Below, piece by piece: positions 52 through 30,973 of a stretch of 31,053 nucleotides of DNA. How positions within the stretch are numbered: the first letter of the stretch is position 1; every line of letters begins with the position of its first letter. The DNA lies in the IMG/VR virus record IMGVR_UViG_3300034523_000188, positions 1 through 31,053 of that record; one strand, given 5' to 3'. The stretch comes from a virus. The notes beneath the pieces are model-generated. The model made no database searches. It was not told the DNA's origin and saw nothing but the letters and a program-made list of their open reading frames with translations. The position numbers and the translations under genes are program-made.

Positions 52-127
<76 letters not shown>

Positions 128-233: not shown

Positions 234-767
234 CTACCAGACAGCCAGTGACTTACCTGTCCGCAACGCTTCATCGAGGATGGTGCACGCAGACTTGAAC
301 AGCGCCTGCTCGATTGAACCGTTATACAGACGTCCCCCTTCCGAAGTGTCGGCGCGCAAGCTGTCCATCAGTTGGTAAAAGCGAACGACGTTTCTAGCCT
401 CCCCCTCGCTAAGCACACCGAGCTTTGGTGCGTTGGCCAAGTAGACGCGGTTGTAATGCTCGGGAATGCCCAGCCTGGCCTGAGCGGCCAATCTGTATTT
501 AGATCTACTAGCAGCTTCAGCGAGCTGCTCGCTGTACTTCTGCCTGCTAGCCAGTTCTAGCAAAGCCTCTACCTCTGCCAATATTGCTGCCCGAACACTG
601 CGGCTTTCTCTCCGGGCTTGCCATCCAAGGGCTAGCCACGAACCACTGATACCAATCAGACCGGAAATCAGTGCTATAGCTACGGTGCTCCAATTTACTG
701 ATTGGCTTGCAGGCGGCGCACCAACGAAATCCCAGACAACTACGCACCATTCCAATGTCTCATTCAT
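234..767 (-). CDS. Single-span membrane protein of the lysogeny operon, unknown function
   Basis: The product is 177 aa. The start at 767 was chosen because GGGAAGG lies about 6 nt upstream; a longer reading from 788 lacks this. One hydrophobic segment spans about residues 28-49 and is followed at once by basic residues (QARRESR), so the larger C-terminal part should be cytoplasmic. That part is Ala/Leu/Glu-rich and probably helical (about 55-100), then has a region with several Tyr and Arg. I recognise no domain. The start overlaps the integrase stop by 8 bp, so it is translationally coupled and should be expressed with repressor and integrase in the lysogen. This position suits a lysogenic-conversion or superinfection-exclusion protein, which is inference only. 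Confidence 0.8.
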
Positions 768-1812
768 CGTAACCTTCCCTGGGTGCAAGATTGGTCAGAG
801 GATTCAGCGTTACTACCTCTGCGAGATGCCCGGGACTGAAATGGGCATAGCGCATTGTCATGGCCAACGACGAGTGCCCGAGAACCCGCTGTAATGTCAG
901 GATATCCCCACCATTTGCCATGTAGTGGCTGGCAAAGGTGTGGCGCAGCACGTGTGTCATCTGCCCATCTGGCAGATCGAGGCTGACAGCTTCAACGGCC
1001 TCTCCAAACCTCTTGTAGCAATCGCCGAACGGCAGGCTGGTCTTCACCAGCTCCTGCAGCTCCTTGCTGATCGGCACGGCCCGGCTCTTGGAGTTCTTCG
1101 TGCGGTGGTAGTGGATGCGGCGGTCCTTCACCTGGCGCGCTGTCAGCCCCTCCGCTTCGGACCAGCGCGCACCAGTCGCCAGGCACACGCGGGCAACTAC
1201 GCCGGCACTCTCTGAAATTCTATCCAGGGCATTCAGCAGCGGCTGAATCTGGTCCTTCTCCAAGTACGCCATTTCCGGCTCATCGAACTTCAGGCGGCGG
1301 ACCTTGCCCAGCGGGTTTTCCCCTTTCCACTCGCCCAGGCGGTCCAGCTCGTTGAACACCGCGCTCAGGTAGGCCAGTTCGTGGTTCAGCGTGTTCGCGC
1401 TGACGGGCTTGGCCTTCTGCCCCTTCTTCATGCCATTGCCCGGCGTGCTCCGGCCATGGTCACCGGCCAGGCGCTCGGCCCGGTACTGGGTGAAGTTGGC
1501 AGCAGTGAAGTCCGTGGCGCGCGGATCGCCCATCCGTTCAGCCATGGCCTGCAAGGCGCGCTGACGCTCTTCCCCGCGCTTGAGCGTCTGCCCGTGCAAC
1601 TTGAACCAGAGATCCACCAGCTCGCTCAGGCGACGTTCATCGCGCTTGGGCTTCTTCTCGAACTCCCCCCTCGCACCATCCCCCATCACCAGCCGTTCGG
1701 CATGCATAGCTTCGTTCTTGGACTTCAACTTGCGACGCACCCGTGGCCCATCGCGCCCTTCAGGACGACAGTCCAGGAGCCATTCACCTGAAGGCAGTTT
1801 CTTGATCGACAT
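760..1812 (-). CDS. int: Tyrosine-recombinase phage integrase
   Basis: A 350-aa site-specific recombinase that would integrate and, with Cox, excise the prophage at tRNA-Thr. The C-terminal catalytic domain shows the full active set: R216 (TGARWSE), K239 (HRTKN), H287 and R290 (HVLRHTF), H313 (LGHSS) and nucleophile Y322 (MRYAHFS). The N-terminus has a basic arm-binding region (about 1-60), followed by a core-binding SAM-like domain (about 60-165). The length suits P2-type phage integrases. It starts 3 nt after the stop of the upstream repressor gene and ends overlapping the membrane-protein gene, so the four leftward genes form one unit. No catalytic residue is missing. Confidence 0.96.
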
Positions 1813-2052: not shown

Positions 2053-2300
2053 CACAGATGAGCCTCTGGGCTGACCTGGCCACAGCTTGGCGCAGCCTCT
2101 CCCGTCATCAGCCACAGAGTGTATTTCTTGAAACGCACGTGGTTGGTGATCTTCAGAAGCGCGATAGAGCTGACCTCGGTACGTAGCGCTAGCTCGTACT
2201 TTTTGTAGCTGCTCAGGCTGATGCCCGTGGCTTCACACAGCTCAGACTGAGTCAGGCCTTCCTTCAGCCTGATCGCCTTCAGCTTTTCCGCGAGCTCCAT
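2052..2300 (-). CDS. HTH repressor paralogue B (likely lysogeny repressor)
   Basis: An 82-aa protein starting MELAEKLKAIR. The start at 2300 is preferred over the ATG at 2309 because AGGGAG lies about 9 nt upstream of it but directly against the earlier ATG, and because this start aligns with the paralogue. The HTH covers GLTQSELCEATGISLSSYKKYE (about residues 14-35). A conserved C-terminal motif, NHVRFKKYTLWLMTGEAAP, probably serves dimerisation. It is the first gene of the leftward lysogeny operon, next to the operator region, the usual place for the repressor in P2-like phages. It is about 80% of the size of P2 C and recalls the small repressors of Pseudomonas P2-like prophages. Confidence 0.88.
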   Translation of the reverse strand: MELAEKLKAIRLKEGLTQSELCEATGISLSSYKKYELALRTEVSSIALLKITNHVRFKKYTLWLMTGEAAPSCGQVSPEAHL

Positions 2301-2316
2301 CAACTGCATCTCCCTC

Positions 2317-2366
2317 TTGACATGGTTCCATATGGGTACTTACTCTAGGGTTCCATATGGGTACTT
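2317..2366. promoter_or_regulatory. Divergent promoter with two 18-bp operator repeats
   Basis: GGTTCCATATGGGTACTT occurs at 2324-2341 and again at 2349-2366, identical, 25 bp centre to centre. Each holds the perfect palindrome CCATATGG (2328-2335, 2353-2360). For rightward transcription, TTGACA at 2317-2322 is followed by an 18-bp spacer and TACTCT (2341-2346). For leftward transcription, TAGAGT (complement of 2342-2347) has a weak TCAAAA 17 bp upstream. Each operator copy would then fill the spacer of one promoter, with overlapping -10 elements between. The repeats are certain; the promoter calls and repressor binding are inferred. Confidence 0.75.
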
Positions 2367-2409
2367 TTGACCCAGATATCCCTAAATAACCGATGCAGAG
2401 GTTAACAGA

Positions 2410-2628
2410 ATGCAGATTGCCATCGACACGCCCTACGTCACGGTAGGCGAGTACGCCAAACGCTCCGGGCAGTCCGACTCCGCCATTCGTCGCGAGATCG
2501 AGCTGGGCCGCTACATCATCCGCCCGAAGGTCGAGGGCTCGAAGTCGGCAGTCCTGATCAACATGGTCCACCTCGCTATGGAAGCGGCCGAGCAATCAGA
2601 ACGTGTTCGCGAAGCGGCCCAGCGGTAA
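2410..2628 (+). CDS. cox: Cox-like regulator/excisionase
   Basis: A 72-aa DNA-binding protein. The start has AGAGG 8 nt upstream. The sequence YVTVGEYAKRSGQSDSAIRREIELGRYIIRPK fits the winged-helix Cox/excisionase family of P2- and HP1-like phages: a MerR/Xis-like helix-turn-helix followed by a wing, then VLINMV near the end of the fold. Such proteins repress the lysogenic promoter and direct excision by integrase. It is the first gene of the rightward early operon, divergent from the repressors, exactly where Cox lies in P2. The primase follows after 9 bp. Confidence 0.88.
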   Translation: MQIAIDTPYVTVGEYAKRSGQSDSAIRREIELGRYIIRPKVEGSKSAVLINMVHLAMEAAEQSERVREAAQR

Positions 2629-2637
2629 GGACAGGCA

Positions 2638-5328
2638 ATGAGCGCACGAATCTCCCCCGAGCAGTTCGACCGGATCTACCTGGACGAGGTGATCCCCGAG
2701 CTGCAGTACGACCCTGAGCTGGGTTTCCAGCCAAAGGATGAGAGCCAGGAGTACTTCAACAAGGGCGCGTGCCCGGGCTGTGGCGAGCGCACGGTCTACA
2801 TCAGCAAGCTCAAGCCCTACCAGCTCAAGTGCAATCGCCTGAACCAGTGCGGCTACGAAGAGAAGACCCGTGATCGATACCGCCACCTGTTCGAGAACCT
2901 GAGCGACCGCTTCCCCTCGACGCCAGAGAACCCCAACGCGACTGCCGATGCCTACCTGCAGCGTAGTCGTGGCTTCGATATCGCTCGGATTTCCGGTTGG
3001 TACGACCAAGAGCGGCGCCTGATGGCCGATGGCTCGTATGCAGCGACCGTTCGGTTCCCGCTGTGCGACGGTTACTGGGAACGCATCATCGATGCGGCCG
3101 CTGTAGCCGCCAACAAAGGTGACAAGGCAGGCATCCGCAAAGGGATGAAATACAAGGGCCAAGGCTGGGAGCCCAAAGGCCAGGCCTACGAGAAGGACGA
3201 CCAGGTCTTCGTCGTGGAGGGCATCTTCCACGCAATCGCTCTGTGGCTCGCTGGGTACAAGGCGATCGCCGCCATCAGTTGCAACAACTTCCCCTGGCAG
3301 ATCATCGAGGCAAACCAGGGCAAGGGCATACGTTGGGTAATTGCCCTGGATGACGATCCGGCAGGTCATGAGGTAATCCCTAAGTATCGGGATCGCTTGG
3401 TCAAAATGAAGGAATTCACCCAGGTGGCGCTCGCTGGCACACGGGACTGGGACGACGTTTATCGCGATGGCCAGCTGGATGATCTGTTCATCCAGGAAGC
3501 GCTCTACCAAGGTCAGTTGTTCTGTGCCAGCACGGCGATGAAGAAGGCCTACCTGCTGTATACCCGACGTCAGATTTCCTTCTTCCTGGTCGAGTTCGGA
3601 CGGTGCCTGTTCTCGGCCCGCGTGGCCACACCTGAGCTGCAGAAGGATCTGGACGAAATTCCCCGCAAGCCCGGCGAGGAGCCAACCGGATACTTCACGC
3701 AGTTTTCAAAGCACACCAAGCTCAACCAGGTGGCCAACTGCGTGCCGCGCTTCGAGTACCTGGAGCGCGACGCAATCAGCGGCGAACAGCGCTACTTCTT
3801 CCAGTTCGAGTTCCCGAATCGCCGGCTGAACTGCAAGGAGCCTTTGCCGCCCAGCGCAATCACCGAGCCACGCGGCTTCGCGAAGGCACTCCTAGAGCGA
3901 ACACCAGGTGGCATGTTCGAGGGCGGTGAAAAGGTGCTGGGGATGCTCAAGAGCGAATGGCTGCGCGACCCCAACGTGGTCCGCACATTGCCCTTCGTTG
4001 GCTACGACGAAGCGACCGGGGCCTACTGTTACCCAACCTTCGGCTTCTACAAAGGCAAGGCAATCCAGGTCAACGAACACGGCTTTCTGGACATCAAAGG
4101 CCACGGCCTCAAGACCTCGGCCCGTAGCTATCCAATGCACCGCGGGGAATCGTTCGATTCGTCCTGGTTCGCTGACTTCAAGTCTGTGTTCGGCCACAAC
4201 GGCCTGGCCAGCTTGGCCTGGTGGACCGGCTCGCTTTTCGCTGAGCAGATCCGCGCAGTGCAGCAAGGCTGGGCTTTTTTGGAGCTGACCGGAGCCGCCG
4301 GCGCAGGTAAGTCCACGCTGCTGCGCTTCCTCTGGCGGCTGGTGGGCCGCAAGAACGAAGAAGGCATCAAGCCCAGCGGTTCGGGTGCGTCGGCCATCGG
4401 CCTGCTGCGATCGCTGTCAGCGGTCAGCAACCTGCCTGTCGTACTGCTCGAGTCGGACAAAGAAACCACCGACGCAATGGGGCGGACCGTGATCGTCCAG
4501 TACAACTGGGACGAGATTAAGTCGCTGTTCGACCAGAACGCCAAGCTCCGTGTCACTGGCGTGAAGACGGGGAACAGCGACACGGATGCGCTGATTTTCC
4601 GTGGCTCGATCTGCATTTCGCAGAACACCATGGTGGAAGGCTCCGACGCGATCATCACCCGGATTGTCTACCTGCACATGACGTGCGACCACCACACCGA
4701 TGCTCTCAAGGTCGTGGCCGATCGGCTCAAGGCGATGCCGGTCGACCAACTGAGTGGCTACCTGCACGCGGTGCTTTGTCAGGAAAGCGCCTGGCTGGAG
4801 CGCTATTTCGGCGCGTACCCGGATTGCGAACGCCGCTTCATGGCACTGGGTGGAGTGAATCATGCGCGAATCATCCAGACCCACGCCCAGGTGCTCGCTG
4901 CCGCCAAAGCCACCCAGGCGCTCTTTCCAGGATGGTCCGATCGAGAGGTTGAAGCGCTGGCCAAACATCTGGAAGCCCGCGCCCTAGATCGTGAGCAAAC
5001 AAGGACAGCAGAAAACAAGACTGCCGCGCAGTTCTGGCAGGCCTATCACTACCTCAACGAACAGGTCGTGACGATTGAGGACGCTGACGGCCGTCGTCAA
5101 GAAACCCGCGAAACCCTGAACCACAGCTCGGACAAAGGCCTGATCGCCATCAACATCCAGCATTTCCAGTCAGCGTGTCGCGCCGCCGGCCTTGAAGCGC
5201 TGCCGACCGTTCTTCTGCAGAAAGGACTGAAACAGAGCCGTACCCACACCTTCCTCGAGGCGCGGAAATGCCACTCCCGCATCGAGCAGCGATCCCTGAA
5301 CTGCTGGATCTTCAAGAAGAACGGATGA
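2638..5328 (+). CDS. Bifunctional primase/helicase, phage replication protein
   Basis: An 896-aa replication protein with AAGGA before its start. An N-terminal zinc ribbon uses C45, C48, C65 and C71 (CPGC...C...C). A Toprim-type domain follows, with VEGIFHAIAL (E194) and ALDDDPAGH (D238-D240), the metal-binding acidic residues of primases. A P-loop ATPase domain begins at about residue 545, with Walker A GAAGAGKST at 552-560. A Walker B-like acidic patch (VVLLESDKE) follows about 50 residues later. The layout is that of zinc-binding, Toprim and helicase parts in one chain, so it can probably prime and unwind the phage DNA. It lies directly after cox, and the heptamer array downstream may be its origin. 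All motifs look intact. Confidence 0.9.
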   Translation: MSARISPEQFDRIYLDEVIPELQYDPELGFQPKDESQEYFNKGACPGCGERTVYISKLKPYQLKCNRLNQCGYEEKTRDRYRHLFENLSDRFPSTPENPNATADAYLQRSRGFDIARISGWYDQERRLMADGSYAATVRFPLCDGYWERIIDAAAVAANKGDKAGIRKGMKYKGQGWEPKGQAYEKDDQVFVVEGIFHAIALWLAGYKAIAAISCNNFPWQIIEANQGKGIRWVIALDDDPAGHEVIPKYRDRLVKMKEFTQVALAGTRDWDDVYRDGQLDDLFIQEALYQGQLFCASTAMKKAYLLYTRRQISFFLVEFGRCLFSARVATPELQKDLDEIPRKPGEEPTGYFTQFSKHTKLNQVANCVPRFEYLERDAISGEQRYFFQFEFPNRRLNCKEPLPPSAITEPRGFAKALLERTPGGMFEGGEKVLGMLKSEWLRDPNVVRTLPFVGYDEATGAYCYPTFGFYKGKAIQVNEHGFLDIKGHGLKTSARSYPMHRGESFDSSWFADFKSVFGHNGLASLAWWTGSLFAEQIRAVQQGWAFLELTGAAGAGKSTLLRFLWRLVGRKNEEGIKPSGSGASAIGLLRSLSAVSNLPVVLLESDKETTDAMGRTVIVQYNWDEIKSLFDQNAKLRVTGVKTGNSDTDALIFRGSICISQNTMVEGSDAIITRIVYLHMTCDHHTDALKVVADRLKAMPVDQLSGYLHAVLCQESAWLERYFGAYPDCERRFMALGGVNHARIIQTHAQVLAAAKATQALFPGWSDREVEALAKHLEARALDREQTRTAENKTAAQFWQAYHYLNEQVVTIEDADGRRQETRETLNHSSDKGLIAINIQHFQSACRAAGLEALPTVLLQKGLKQSRTHTFLEARKCHSRIEQRSLNCWIFKKNG

Positions 5329-5440
5329 CCCCGTCCGAGCGGGATGAGCTCTCCGGGTTAGGGGGGAGTCCGGCGGTTTAGAAATTTATGAGTAGTCCCC
5401 TAGAGCATCTGGAATATCTAGAAGGAAGAGGAATATATCA

Positions 5441-5686
5441 ATGAATACAGTCAGTTACGAGCCATCAGCAAAGCCCATACCACTGGAAGGCGCTGGAAGG
5501 TTTCGGACAGTCGATCCTTCCACTTCCTTCCACCAACCTTCCACTTTCAAGGCTTTTCCGCGAACCCGCTGTAGCCCAGGCGCCACGCGGCCTGCAGGCC
5601 AATCATGCAATGTAAACCTTCCACCTCCTTCCACCCCAGGTGGAAGGACAGAAAAAATCTTCAGCCCAGCAACCACGCGGGCTTGA
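5441..5686 (+). CDS. Possible small protein over the heptamer array (doubtful)
   Basis: An 81-codon frame with AAGAGGA 8 nt before its ATG. The product is Pro/Thr/Ser-rich and shows no recognisable fold, and the middle (PSTSFHQPSTF) is simply the translation of CCTTCCAC repeats. The repeats run on both strands without respect for reading frame, which argues that the DNA, not the protein, is selected. It is kept only because of the good ribosome-binding site and the otherwise unusual 478-bp gap. Confidence 0.25.
   Translation: MNTVSYEPSAKPIPLEGAGRFRTVDPSTSFHQPSTFKAFPRTRCSPGATRPAGQSCNVNLPPPSTPGGRTEKIFSPATTRA
5484..5647. repeat. Array of eight CCTTCCA heptamers, candidate origin/iterons
   Basis: CCTTCCA occurs at 5516, 5526, 5537, 5617 and 5627 on the plus strand. 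Its complement TGGAAGG occurs at 5484, 5494 and 5641. Neighbouring copies are 10 or 11 bp apart, one helical turn. The last two form a perfect inverted repeat, 9-bp arms with a 3-bp centre, at 5627-5647. The array lies in the 5329-5806 gap directly after the primase gene, where a P2-family phage could hold its origin. Phased heptamers on both strands suggest a cooperative protein-binding array. Whether that is an origin, a Cox site or a regulator site is inference. Confidence 0.7.
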
Positions 5687-5690
5687 GGCC
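5573..5690. repeat. Imperfect 28-bp direct repeat in the origin-like gap
   Basis: 5573-5600 and 5663-5690 match at 22 of 28 positions and share AGCCCAG, CCACGCGG and AGGCC blocks 90 bp apart. The second group of heptamers lies between the two copies. This suggests that the non-coding region grew by duplication or has a modular binding-site layout. No function can be assigned. Confidence 0.45.
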
Positions 5691-5757
5691 CCACAGTCTG
5701 GACTCCTTCCGGATATTCCAGACGTGCAAGGGGCATACGCGCCGCAAAGGATTTTAG

Positions 5758-5773
5758 GGCGGGAAACCGCCCC
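5758..5773 (+). other. GGGCGG-GAAA-CCGCCC hairpin upstream of the small-gene operon
   Basis: A perfect 6-bp GC stem with a GAAA (GNRA) tetraloop ends 33 nt before the ATG at 5807. No T-run follows, so it is not a standard terminator. It could be a structured 5' leader element of the operon that includes csrA. Its role is unknown. Confidence 0.4.
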
Positions 5774-5806
5774 CAACCGCCGCAAGGCAACCCAAGGAGA
5801 AACGCG

Positions 5807-6169
5807 ATGCAAACCAACCACCGCACCCTGGCCACCGTCATGGCCGAAGTCCAGGCCCACCAGCAGCGCCTGCCCGCGATCGTCACCGCTGGCACCCAGG
5901 CTCTACACCGCCTGGTGCCTCTCGCCCTGCGCGACACCGGCCAGAGCCGCGTCCTGGGCCGGTTCCTGCTGGGGGTCTACAACGGCGAGGACTTCCCCTT
6001 TGAACTCAGCACCCTGCGCGGCCTGGACCTCCCGCTGTTCGAGGACTGCCTGAAGGTGCTGATGATGGATTACACCCCGGACCTGGAGGTCCACGAACGC
6101 ATCCAGGGTGGAAGCCAAATCTGGCAGCAACTGACCGAGCGATGGGCGCCGGAGGTCGTCGGGGAATGA
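5807..6169 (+). CDS. Small phage protein, probable DUF7673-type
   Basis: A 120-aa acidic soluble protein preceded by AAGGAG 8 nt before the ATG. The core, LVPLALRDTGQSRVLGRFLLGVYNGEDFPFELSTLRGLD, followed by a conserved LFEDCLKVLMMD, resembles a family (DUF7673, from memory) common on Pseudomonas plasmids and prophages. No enzyme motif or membrane segment is visible. It is the first gene of a tightly packed operon ending at the terminator at 7618. The next gene starts inside its stop codon (ATGA). Confidence 0.72.
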   Translation: MQTNHRTLATVMAEVQAHQQRLPAIVTAGTQALHRLVPLALRDTGQSRVLGRFLLGVYNGEDFPFELSTLRGLDLPLFEDCLKVLMMDYTPDLEVHERIQGGSQIWQQLTERWAPEVVGE

Positions 6170-27425: not shown

Positions 27426-28126
27426 AACTGCACCAGGTACTCAACGTGGGCGGCACCGACTACGACCTGGTGAAGTCGGACGTGCGCCTGGAGCTGCGCA
27501 ACCCGGGGCGGGCGACCTTCACTGTGCAGGCCGGTGCGCCGCTCAAAGGCCTGGTCACGTTCGACATTGGCTACAACGACGGCCCGCTGCAGCGGCACTT
27601 CATCGGGTACGTGGAGCGCAGCACCACGGCGAACAGCAAACAGCAGGTGCTGTTCTGCCGCGAGCTGGCCGCGATCCTGGCCAGGCCCCTGCCGATGAAC
27701 CTACGGCACGTCGATCTGCGCGCTGTGCTTGAGCACGTGAGCCAACAGACCGGCCTGCGCTTTCGTGTGCCCGACCAGCCCTACGCCACAACCCGGGCGC
27801 CGTTCTTCTACAGCCTTGCCGCCGGCTTCCAGGCAATGGAAAGCCTGGCCCAGGTGTTCAGCATCCCCGACTTCATATGGCAGCAGCAGGGCGATGGCGA
27901 GGTGTTCGTGGGGAGCTGGGCGGACAGCTACTTCGGCGTGCGCCCCGCGCTGCAGCTGCCGGTCGAGCTGTTCGACCACTACCAGGGCAACCAGAGCGCC
28001 ACGATTGCAGCCCTGCCCGGGCTACGTCCTGGTGCAACGATCAACCAGGGCGAGCGAGTGACCCATGTCGCGCTCGCCGGCAATCAGATGGGTATCCGAT
28101 GGAAGACGCAATCCGCCGCGCAGTAG
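27422..28126 (+). CDS. D: Baseplate hub protein (gpD-like)
   Basis: A 234-aa hub component; the start overlaps the upstream stop (ATGA). KLHQVLNVGGTDYDLVKSDVRLELRNPGRATFTVQAGAPLKGLVTFDIGYNDGPLQRHFIGYVERS and LRFRVPDQPYATTRAPFFYSLAAGFQAMESLAQVFSIPDFIWQQQGDGEVFVGSWADSYF fit hub proteins of the D/gp27 type. P2 gpD is about 387 aa, so this is a short version, as in HP1-type phages. It lies before the spike gene, with 28-bp overlap. Confidence 0.78.
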   Translation: MKLHQVLNVGGTDYDLVKSDVRLELRNPGRATFTVQAGAPLKGLVTFDIGYNDGPLQRHFIGYVERSTTANSKQQVLFCRELAAILARPLPMNLRHVDLRAVLEHVSQQTGLRFRVPDQPYATTRAPFFYSLAAGFQAMESLAQVFSIPDFIWQQQGDGEVFVGSWADSYFGVRPALQLPVELFDHYQGNQSATIAALPGLRPGATINQGERVTHVALAGNQMGIRWKTQSAAQ

Positions 28127-29070
28127 AGCGCCAATTCCCCGAAATCACCGGGGGCTACCACCTGCCACGCTTCGGTCGCGTGGTCGCGGTACCGGATGCG
28201 CCGGCGGCGCCCGGGCTGTGTGACGACTTCCGCCCGCGTTTCGGTGTAGATGTCCAGGTACTGCTGCCAGATGGCGAACCGGATCCGGCGCTGCCGGTGT
28301 TCACCAGCCTGCCGCTGCCGGCGCCGATGGGCGGCCAGGAGGCCGGCATGTTCGGCTTCCCCGAGGAAGGCACGACCGTGGTCGTGTCGTTCGCCTACGG
28401 CCTGCCGCACAAGCCCTTTATCCAGCAGATCCTGCCGCACGGGCTGAGCCTGCCCCGGGTACCGAAAGGGGACCAGGTCTGGCAGCACAGCGAGGCCTGT
28501 CAGCAGCGCGTGGACGCGGACGGCAACTGGCTGCGCCAGACGGATGGAAAGATTCAGGACAAGGCGATCGAGCGCGAAGTGGAATCGCTGGCCAACCGCG
28601 AGCAATTCCAGAGCCACACCAGGAACGTGGACGACCACTCGACCGAGACGGTGGGCGGGGTGAAGAAGATCGAGGCCCTGGGTGCGCTCAAGTTGCTATC
28701 CGGTGGATCCGCGAGCCTGGCTGCTGTTGATGACCTGCACCAGGCCACCGGGCGCGACCTCAACCTGGTGGTAGGGCAGAAGCTCAATGCGACGGTAGGC
28801 GGCGATGTCCAGGAGCGCATCGAGGGCTTGCGGAAAAGCGTGGTAGGCGTCAGTCAGCGCCTGCAGGCGCCGAAGACGTGGCTGGGGTCGGAGGGGGTGA
28901 ACGTGCTGCAGGTGCTGTGTGATCTACTCGACCTGGTCCAGGAGATGAACACCCAGCTGGCGGTGCATGTGCATGGCCCAACGCCAACGCCAAATAATTC
29001 CGCCGCATTCTTATTAGCCGAAGCTTCCGCGAAAGTAATAGGGAATAAGCTAAAGGCTATAACCCTCTGA
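28099..29070 (+). CDS. V: Baseplate spike protein (gpV/VgrG-like)
   Basis: A 323-aa spike that punctures the outer membrane. The N-terminal half is an OB-fold (PRFGRVVAVPDAP...RFGVDVQVLLPDGEPDPALPVFTSLPLPAPMGGQEAGMFGFPEEGTTVVVSFAYGLPHKPFIQQILPHG). A repeat-like beta-helix region follows. The C-terminal HVHGPTPTP has an H-x-H that could hold the metal of the spike tip. The last 27 codons (from about 28992) switch to A/T-ending codons such as ATA and TTA, unlike the rest of the gene, so the end may be recombinant with the AT-rich island downstream. Confidence 0.85.
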   Translation: MEDAIRRAVERQFPEITGGYHLPRFGRVVAVPDAPAAPGLCDDFRPRFGVDVQVLLPDGEPDPALPVFTSLPLPAPMGGQEAGMFGFPEEGTTVVVSFAYGLPHKPFIQQILPHGLSLPRVPKGDQVWQHSEACQQRVDADGNWLRQTDGKIQDKAIEREVESLANREQFQSHTRNVDDHSTETVGGVKKIEALGALKLLSGGSASLAAVDDLHQATGRDLNLVVGQKLNATVGGDVQERIEGLRKSVVGVSQRLQAPKTWLGSEGVNVLQVLCDLLDLVQEMNTQLAVHVHGPTPTPNNSAAFLLAEASAKVIGNKLKAITL

Positions 29071-29092: not shown

Positions 29093-29935
29093 CTATATAC
29101 GATGAAAATCCAGTGCAAAAAGTCGCTCACTAACTTCCGCTTTAAAGACCTCCACATGTGACAGCTGCTGCGACTTTGAAACCAGATCCAAAATTTTATC
29201 TTGGTTGGTTTTTGTCATCCTGGCCCCGAGCCTAATCGAGCGCAGACATTCCCAAGGAAACTCAAACAGATGAATTGGCACATCGAGACCAGGAATCTCT
29301 TTAACTTCATCTGCATCCTGCAATGGCCTGAGAATCCTCCACTCCTGCTCGTACTCCCAGATACGCCCTTTAGAAATAAACACATCATAAGAAGGGCCAT
29401 CTATCAAAATTGTTTCAGGCCTAACGTCAGTATATTTAACCTTCCGAATGTGACGTAATTCATCTTTGTCCGATCTGCGCTGATGAAAATGCGGATCGCT
29501 CGTATCGAAGCCTAACACAAAACCGGCATGACTTTCCGCATAGTGCGCCCACATCAACAAGTTATCATATTTTTCAGTCAGGCATAGCATACCGACCTTT
29601 TCAAATTGCTCAGCAAGCGTTGTTTGCACTTGAGAACTTCGAAGATTAACTTGCTCTGTAACATATTTCAAAGGCATTACGCTAAACAGCAGCTTAAACA
29701 ATTCATCTTCAGAAACCGCTCGACCGACTTTTGCGGAAAACTCGGCCTTCAATGACTGCATTTGCGGAGCTGCGACCTCAATGTATTTTTTTATAATTTC
29801 ACTTTCTGGCGCAATAGCAGAAATATGTGGCTTTAGTTCGAAAGGATCATTCAATACCGAAGGAGGAGAATAGCGCAATTTACCATTTTCAAGAACTTGC
29901 GCCAAACTAGGAGAAAAGTACTTGTACAGTATCAT
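29093..29935 (-). CDS. DUF2971 family protein, AT-rich cargo gene
   Basis: A 280-aa soluble protein with AGAGG 5 nt before its start. The DUF2971 pattern is plain: YKYFSP (4-9), NDPFE (29-33), CLTEKYDNLLMWAHYAESHAGFVLGFD (118-144), and KGRIWEYEQEWRIL (189-202), with W129, H131, Y132, E196, E198 and R200 among the most conserved. No biochemical function is established to my knowledge. The gene is on the strand opposite the late genes, is visibly AT-rich, and follows a membrane-protein gene by 44 bp in one operon. Such cargo at the end of a prophage is often a defence or fitness gene, here by inference. Confidence 0.88.
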   Translation of the reverse strand: MILYKYFSPSLAQVLENGKLRYSPPSVLNDPFELKPHISAIAPESEIIKKYIEVAAPQMQSLKAEFSAKVGRAVSEDELFKLLFSVMPLKYVTEQVNLRSSQVQTTLAEQFEKVGMLCLTEKYDNLLMWAHYAESHAGFVLGFDTSDPHFHQRRSDKDELRHIRKVKYTDVRPETILIDGPSYDVFISKGRIWEYEQEWRILRPLQDADEVKEIPGLDVPIHLFEFPWECLRSIRLGARMTKTNQDKILDLVSKSQQLSHVEVFKAEVSERLFALDFHRI

Positions 29936-29979
29936 CGAAACCTCTGGAGAAATTTATCAGATCTTTTTGCTTCACAAGC

Positions 29980-30462
29980 CTACTTGAATTTAATCGTCAT
30001 ATACGGCGTTACCATTTCTTCCCATTCTTCCTGGTAACGCTTCAAGCTATCTTTAAGAACAGCAACCTCATTAATTTTTATTCGCCTAACCTGAACAAGC
30101 TCAGGATCCGATGGCTCATCCATATCACTAGACTTTAGCATCTCGATCTCCTCCCACAATTCCAGCATCCTTCCTACATCCTCCCAGACCTTACCCAAAC
30201 AAAAGTCAGCGAAGGCTGGATCGAACAGCCACTTCACACTTCTAATCGCTTCGTGAAAATCCCTAGCAGCCTCGGTTTTATCGCCAAACCTATACCTGTG
30301 CACAGAAATAAATTTATCAACCGCCTCATAGGCTTTTAGCCGCCTTTCAAACAGATCCAACTTTAATTTATTTTGCGCAGTACGCCATTGACGATACGCA
30401 ATTAGAAAACCAAGACAACCAACAAAAACCGTAATAGCACTAAACACTAATGTGGGACTCAT
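29980..30462 (-). CDS. Single-span membrane protein paired with DUF2971
   Basis: A 160-aa protein with a perfect AGGAGGT 5-6 nt upstream. A membrane helix covers about residues 4-23 (TLVFSAITVFVGCLGFLIAY), then comes RQWRTAQNKLKLDLFERRLKAYEAVDKFI, a motif I know from other small hypothetical membrane proteins. The cytoplasmic part is charged and helical (about 30-155). It is the first gene of the leftward AT-rich operon and shares its promoter with the DUF2971 gene. It might anchor its partner or sense a membrane signal; both are inference. Confidence 0.82.
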   Translation of the reverse strand: MSPTLVFSAITVFVGCLGFLIAYRQWRTAQNKLKLDLFERRLKAYEAVDKFISVHRYRFGDKTEAARDFHEAIRSVKWLFDPAFADFCLGKVWEDVGRMLELWEEIEMLKSSDMDEPSDPELVQVRRIKINEVAVLKDSLKRYQEEWEEMVTPYMTIKFK

Positions 30463-30486
30463 ACTAACCTCCTAGCACAGAGAGCC

Positions 30487-30516
30487 ATAATGGCAAGAGG
30501 CTACCCACCATGTAAA
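30487..30516 (-). promoter_or_regulatory. Putative sigma70 promoter of the cargo operon
   Basis: On the minus strand, TTTACA (complement of 30511-30516), 18-bp spacer, then CATTAT (complement of 30487-30492). The start codon follows about 24 bp later. Five of six and four of six consensus bases match, so the two cargo genes can be expressed in the lysogen independently of phage control. Confidence 0.6.
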
Positions 30517-30926: not shown

Positions 30927-30973
30927 GACTTGTAATCAGTAGGTCCCGGGTTCGATTCCTGGTGCCGGCACCA
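30927..30973 (+). repeat. attR core, 47-bp direct repeat (3' part of tRNA-Thr)
   Basis: It is identical to 81-127. Upstream bases are phage DNA and do not continue the tRNA, so this is a tRNA 3' fragment, the original host end displaced by integration. Host sequence begins at 30974. Confidence 0.95.

Follow-up and report, generated by a model that had tools for sequence, protein, structure and literature searches.

A DUF2971 gene with a predicted ADP-ribosyltransferase fold in the variable right-end cargo slot of a P2-like prophage

The window analysed here, meaning the whole stretch of 31,053 nucleotides of viral DNA (IMG/VR record IMGVR_UViG_3300034523_000188, positions 1 to 31,053), is apparently a whole P2-like prophage, at the right end of which two AT-rich genes are located between tail gene D and attR. 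We propose that these genes are lysogenic cargo, in which the DUF2971 gene would encode a single-gene, ADP-ribosyltransferase-like exclusion effector next to a separately evolving membrane moron, a reading to which we give a probability of roughly 0.55. The cargo and defence parts of this reading are well supported by context, and ADP-ribosyltransferase activity, as predicted from the modelled fold, is the best-supported mechanism at present. The features carrying this reading are:

29093 to 29935, minus strand: DUF2971 / PDC-S31 protein of 280 residues with a predicted ADP-ribosyltransferase fold (Pfam, PADLOC, AlphaFold and VIA)
29342 to 29365, minus strand: motif resembling the ADP-ribosylating turn-turn (ARTT) loop, residues 191-198 R-I-W-E-Y-E-Q-E (W193, E196, E198), in 60/60 homologues
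29980 to 30462, minus strand: single-span membrane moron of 160 residues with an N-terminal helix containing QWRTAxNKLKLDLF and a helical-bundle cytoplasmic part (homologues and AlphaFold)

The DUF2971 / PDC-S31 protein is covered over most of its length by curated models, with matches to Pfam PF11185 (DUF2971; 35.6 bits, cut-off 22) and PADLOC PDC-S31 (residues 3-278, E=6.4e-38), and also to phrog_1762 (1.2e-51). An earlier, sequence-only reading of the window had suggested a role in prophage defence, and this is likely for DUF2971, which is already a phage defence candidate family (PDC-S31) in PADLOC-DB v2. The window protein shares with that family near full-length sequence membership and the single-gene layout, but it is divergent, and in its prophage slot it runs in the same direction as a membrane moron. 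No homologues above about 42% identity were found, and viral contigs scanned with the one DUF2971 sequence gave no match, the patterns used being too specific. DUF2971 occurred in 21 of 229 gammaproteobacterial genomes, in 557 plasmid records and in at least 83 viral contigs; it is widespread yet almost unstudied, with a single paper in a collection of 5.39 million mentioning it. An assignment as ADP-ribosyltransferase, with three named residues, would make this orphan defence candidate a directly testable enzyme.

The AlphaFold model of the protein, which is confident, with a predicted local distance difference test (pLDDT) score of 92.6 and a predicted template modelling (pTM) score of 0.83, was compared with known structures. 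After realignment with VIA-align, rows 1-11 of the list were all ADP-ribosyltransferases, and rows 1-11 and 13-15 consisted of DarT, Tpt1, CteC, pertussis S1 and LT-A, with Z from 7.3 to 3.9. The top row was DarT of M. tuberculosis (Z 7.3, 139 residues, 4.2 A), and yeast Tpt1 (Z 7.2, 106/120 residues, 2.8 A), Thermus DarT (7.1), DarT1 (5.6), CteC (4.8) and pertussis S1 (4.3) were also among the matches; nuclease folds had clearly lower scores. The agreement among several different ADP-ribosyltransferase families is a stronger argument than any single Z, and on this modelled evidence the protein seems to have the architecture of an ADP-ribosyltransferase. A viral structure library searched with the same model gave no significant match, and PDB sequence searches with the DUF2971 family and with the membrane family gave none.

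Conservation was determined on an alignment of 60 DUF2971 homologues from viral contigs, one of them the window protein, in which ten positions (N29, D30, W129, Y132, G138, K189, W193, E196, E198 and R200) are invariant. The conserved W-H-Y and E-x-E-W-R residues picked out earlier hold at W129, Y132, E196, E198 and R200, with H131 in 58/60, but W199 is found in only 32/60. In ADP-ribosyltransferases of the R-S-E class, the ARTT loop has the consensus X-X-aromatic-X-X-E/Q-X-E, the last E being catalytic (PMC7827354). The pattern aromatic-x-x-[EQ]-x-E at residues 191-198 fits every row, and no other site fits even 6 rows; this test of the motif does not depend entirely on the fold. E198 begins a strand (198-204) in the predicted model, in keeping with the fifth core strand, where a catalytic glutamate is expected together with an ARTT loop, K5 is on strand 2-7, and position 120, with S or T in 52/60 homologues, ends strand 114-120, so that the chain order K5, S/T120, E198 is that of the R-S-E class residues. 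Compared with members of this class that have an ARTT loop (C3, iota and ScARP), DUF2971 is alike in the ARTT consensus and in the S/T ending a middle strand, but K5 replaces R and a helical insert of about 70 residues (44-111) follows strand 2. The sequence-only reading had raised an ADP-ribosyltransferase-like site as speculation; backed by the fold comparison and by the ARTT motif, this has become its strongest part, with the activity itself being predicted from the model.

The resemblance to DarT, the DNA ADP-ribosyltransferase toxin of DarTG, lies in the predicted fold and in a glutamate in similar chain order. DUF2971 differs in having the ARTT-loop motif W-x-x-E-x-E, a strand-1 K where DarT has H, and neither a DarG/NADAR partner nor a DarT match in Pfam. 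Membership of the DarT family itself was rejected, as no Pfam DarT match was obtained up to E 10 and the profile score was not above those of shuffles, and a DarT system was also rejected, the neighbours being only tail gene D and the membrane gene rather than an adjacent DarG macrodomain or NADAR antitoxin. A profile-profile comparison with Tpt1/KptA was likewise not significant. Since the DarT profile comparison fails, the assignment is based on fold and motif, and the protein does not belong to the DarT family itself.

In the mechanism proposed, the AT-rich unit would be lysogenic cargo, carried in a prophage slot that is variable and in part defensive, and its DUF2971 gene would provide a single-gene effector with an ADP-ribosyltransferase fold. 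The ARTT-like loop (W193-x-x-E196-x-E198) and K5 on the first strand would hold NAD+ and a target. When a competing phage infects, the effector could ADP-ribosylate a phage or host macromolecule and the infection would be stopped. The upstream membrane protein would be a separately evolving phage moron on the same transcript and not an obligate sensor.

The two genes are located at the right end of the prophage, as had been noticed from the sequence, and this was confirmed by a 47-bp direct repeat of the 3' end of tRNA-Thr. The borders and signals of the region are:

81 to 127, plus strand: attL, repeat copy within tRNA-Thr(TGT) at 52-127
28102 to 29070, plus strand: homologue of tail gene D, at which the cargo slot begins on the left (related loci at 79-89% identity)
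30466 to 30473, minus strand: ribosome-binding site AGGAGGT of the membrane gene, read from the sequence
30487 to 30516, minus strand: possible sigma-70 promoter TTTACA-18-CATTAT (consensus scan, not above chance)
30927 to 30973, plus strand: attR, repeat copy of the tRNA-Thr 3' end (47 bp, the same sequence as 81-127)

Both open reading frames (ORFs) start with ATG, are separated by a gap of 44 bp and converge on the late gene that ends at 29070. They are genuine genes and not chance ORFs, because the DUF2971 ORF matches Pfam, PADLOC and phrog models and the membrane ORF has a 46% homologue and a family. Their antisense orientation to the late operon and their much lower guanine plus cytosine (GC) content, both pointed out earlier, were confirmed, with a GC of 42-43% (41-43% at third codon positions, GC3) compared with 61-69% (GC3 73-86%) in the neighbouring late genes. 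The ribosome-binding site was also found as described; the promoter, which had been called good, matches 9/12 consensus positions and is no better than chance, with 2 such sites found in the stretch against 2.4 +/- 1.7 expected.

The late genes match Peduoviridae, for example Pseudomonas phage UFJF_PfPro, and the host chromosome is bacterial, probably of Pseudomonas. To compare the slot, 80 of 431 related loci were kept as gene D relatives (79-89% identity), and the 69 of these with at least 1 kb past gene D were used; the position of attR was located in the window and in one relative only. Beyond gene D, GC drops by a mean of 0.16 (69 relatives), and the first large ORF is antisense to the late operon in 45/61 relatives. 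Between two conserved borders, the content of the slot differs from phage to phage (69 loci), as in a high-turnover hotspot, and includes GmrSD, SIR2, HEPN and PIN domains, type II methylase/nuclease genes, acyltransferases and polymerase-like genes, with PADLOC matches to HEC-06, NsnA, PD-T4-2, Septu PtuA, PDC-S25/ThsA-like and DpdB. Because the contents vary across relatives and include PADLOC matches, the gene D-attR slot is mixed cargo with a strong defence share, which bears out the earlier suggestion of lysogenic-conversion cargo. The two genes are not fixed core genes of the group, the membrane gene being found in 1/80 gene D relatives (L019/L002), there beside DUF4238, and their GC3 is not core-like. 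DUF2971 was found in one other gene D relative, L062, as a distant member (23.4 bits against the Pfam cut-off of 22). This gene (4580-5902, minus strand) is long, carries the motif W-x-x-E-x-E, is located in the gene D slot of another P2-like prophage and is interrupted by the contig end. In P2-like phages of E. coli, a defence hotspot is found between replication gene A and portal gene Q (Rousset 2022, PMC9122126). The two are alike in being variable slots of a few kb in P2-like prophages with defence genes including DUF4238; the present slot runs from tail gene D to attR, not from A to Q. More genes for phage exclusion could be drawn from it within this group of prophages.

Apart from the phage context, no recurrent partner or antitoxin-like neighbour was found in 63 DUF2971 clusters from viral contigs. 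The recurring contexts were of filamentous-phage type, with a Zot-like gene (12 loci), or consisted of P2-like tail genes (up to 4 loci). In the filamentous-phage-like contigs L137, L141, L153, L159, L167, L169, L181 and L184, DUF2971 stands beside the Zot-like gene, usually on the opposite strand; a second moron position is antisense within the P2-like tail operon, beside baseplate genes (L131, L139 and L174). The gene upstream of a Pseudoalteromonas DUF2971 was considered as a membrane-protein homologue and rejected, having no homology. Five tandem DUF2971 paralogues form an unexplained array in one genome, L257 (4313-10140, plus strand). Directly before it are a methylase gene of type II-like character (2251-3207) and a gene for a probable endonuclease (3207-4316), the latter overlapped by the first DUF2971 gene by 4 nt; this pair was assigned from its sequence, without a database match, and is a probable one.

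The membrane protein has one hydrophobic stretch near its N-terminus (Kyte-Doolittle maximum 2.34), in agreement with the single span described earlier, and its AlphaFold model (pLDDT 93.3) consists of four helices. Its family, assembled in 23 rows with the motif QWRTAxNKLKLDLF, is sporadic in phages and chromosomes and was present in 6/369 gammaproteobacterial genomes. No credible Pfam match was obtained for any of the 23 members, and a structure search with the model returned just generic helical bundles and receptor domains. The closest relatives, L002 (46%, a sister prophage) and L088 (38%), are both at gene D slots and group with the window in the tree (98/92 for the window and L002, 91/51 with L088). 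Within 50 bp, the membrane gene is followed by DUF4238 (87.8 bits) in L002 and by an HNH_5-like protein in L088 (24.2 bits, below the cut-off of 27.5). With one membrane clade at three P2-like right ends, where the next gene is DUF2971, DUF4238 or HNH-like, the membrane protein could be a first-gene module common to all three, with the second gene being exchangeable, and it may anchor or trigger different killers; we put this forward as a rather doubtful suggestion, the change of partner being interesting but based on three loci. In Stenotrophomonas-type phage loci (L095, L097, L104-L106, L108, L111 and L112), the N-terminus of the family is kept (MVETVLGMTDLQIKL...QWRTARNKLKADLF) and the C-terminal half is strongly variable, as if exchanged.

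Several observations weigh against an ADP-ribosyltransferase-like exclusion effector. PDC-S31, like the other PDC systems in PADLOC, is a putative class defined via guilt-by-embedding and not experimentally validated (PMC10855318), and the slot is not purely defensive, with PADLOC matches in only about 4/20 slot genes of a hand-picked, not random, sample. A VIA Z of about 7 is within the range reachable by unrelated models, and row 12 of the list is an unrelated splicing endonuclease (Z 4.2). With Foldseek alone, DarT filled the first three rows but even the best E, 0.33, was not significant, and the profile-profile comparison with DarT was not significant (15.9; shuffled 13.0 +/- 2.3, maximum 17.8). 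Position 5 is K in 56/60 homologues, H in 2, R in 1 and Y in 1, and from the sequence this K in place of the usual first-strand R/H makes activity uncertain; it does not exclude the ADP-ribosyltransferase superfamily, because the class residues are not kept in ParT and Tpt1 either (PMC7827354). The lack of a significant sequence link to DarT, the K and the Foldseek E above 0.3 would all be accounted for if the protein only resembled ADP-ribosyltransferases in its fold and were in fact a nuclease, or a binding protein without catalytic activity. This is unlikely, as catalysis is suggested by the ten invariant positions, among them the E-x-E in the ARTT loop, and nuclease folds score clearly lower in the VIA list.

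It is also improbable that the DUF2971 ADP-ribosyltransferase serves the phage itself, as an anti-CRISPR or anti-defence protein (like AcrIF11) or in host takeover, although it is common on plasmids and a recurrent moron in both filamentous-phage-like loci and P2-like tail operons. The definition of PDC-S31 is based on its embedding in defence loci (PMC10855318), one DUF2971 array follows a methylase/nuclease pair, and the gene is antisense to the lytic operons and lies in a low-GC leader region, an arrangement that would suit expression in the lysogen. The sequence-only reading had pointed to a membrane sensor with a cytoplasmic effector as a common abortive-infection layout. In a true two-gene unit of this kind, the membrane protein would act as the sensor of infection or as an anchor for the complex, and would free or switch on the DUF2971 enzyme. 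The tight operon fits such a unit, as do the membrane relatives in L002 and L088 that each precede another effector-like gene. However, a membrane homologue is absent from all of the roughly 70 DUF2971 loci of viral contigs, membrane homologues are mostly alone or beside phage or housekeeping genes, and the DUF4238 protein of E. coli alone gives strong resistance to T7 (PMC9122126). The pairing was therefore not borne out, and we consider an obligate two-gene unit to be quite unlikely.

A further moron may be present at the other end of the window, where another small ORF (234-788, minus strand), flanked by attL and the probable integrase region, also contains a hydrophobic stretch.
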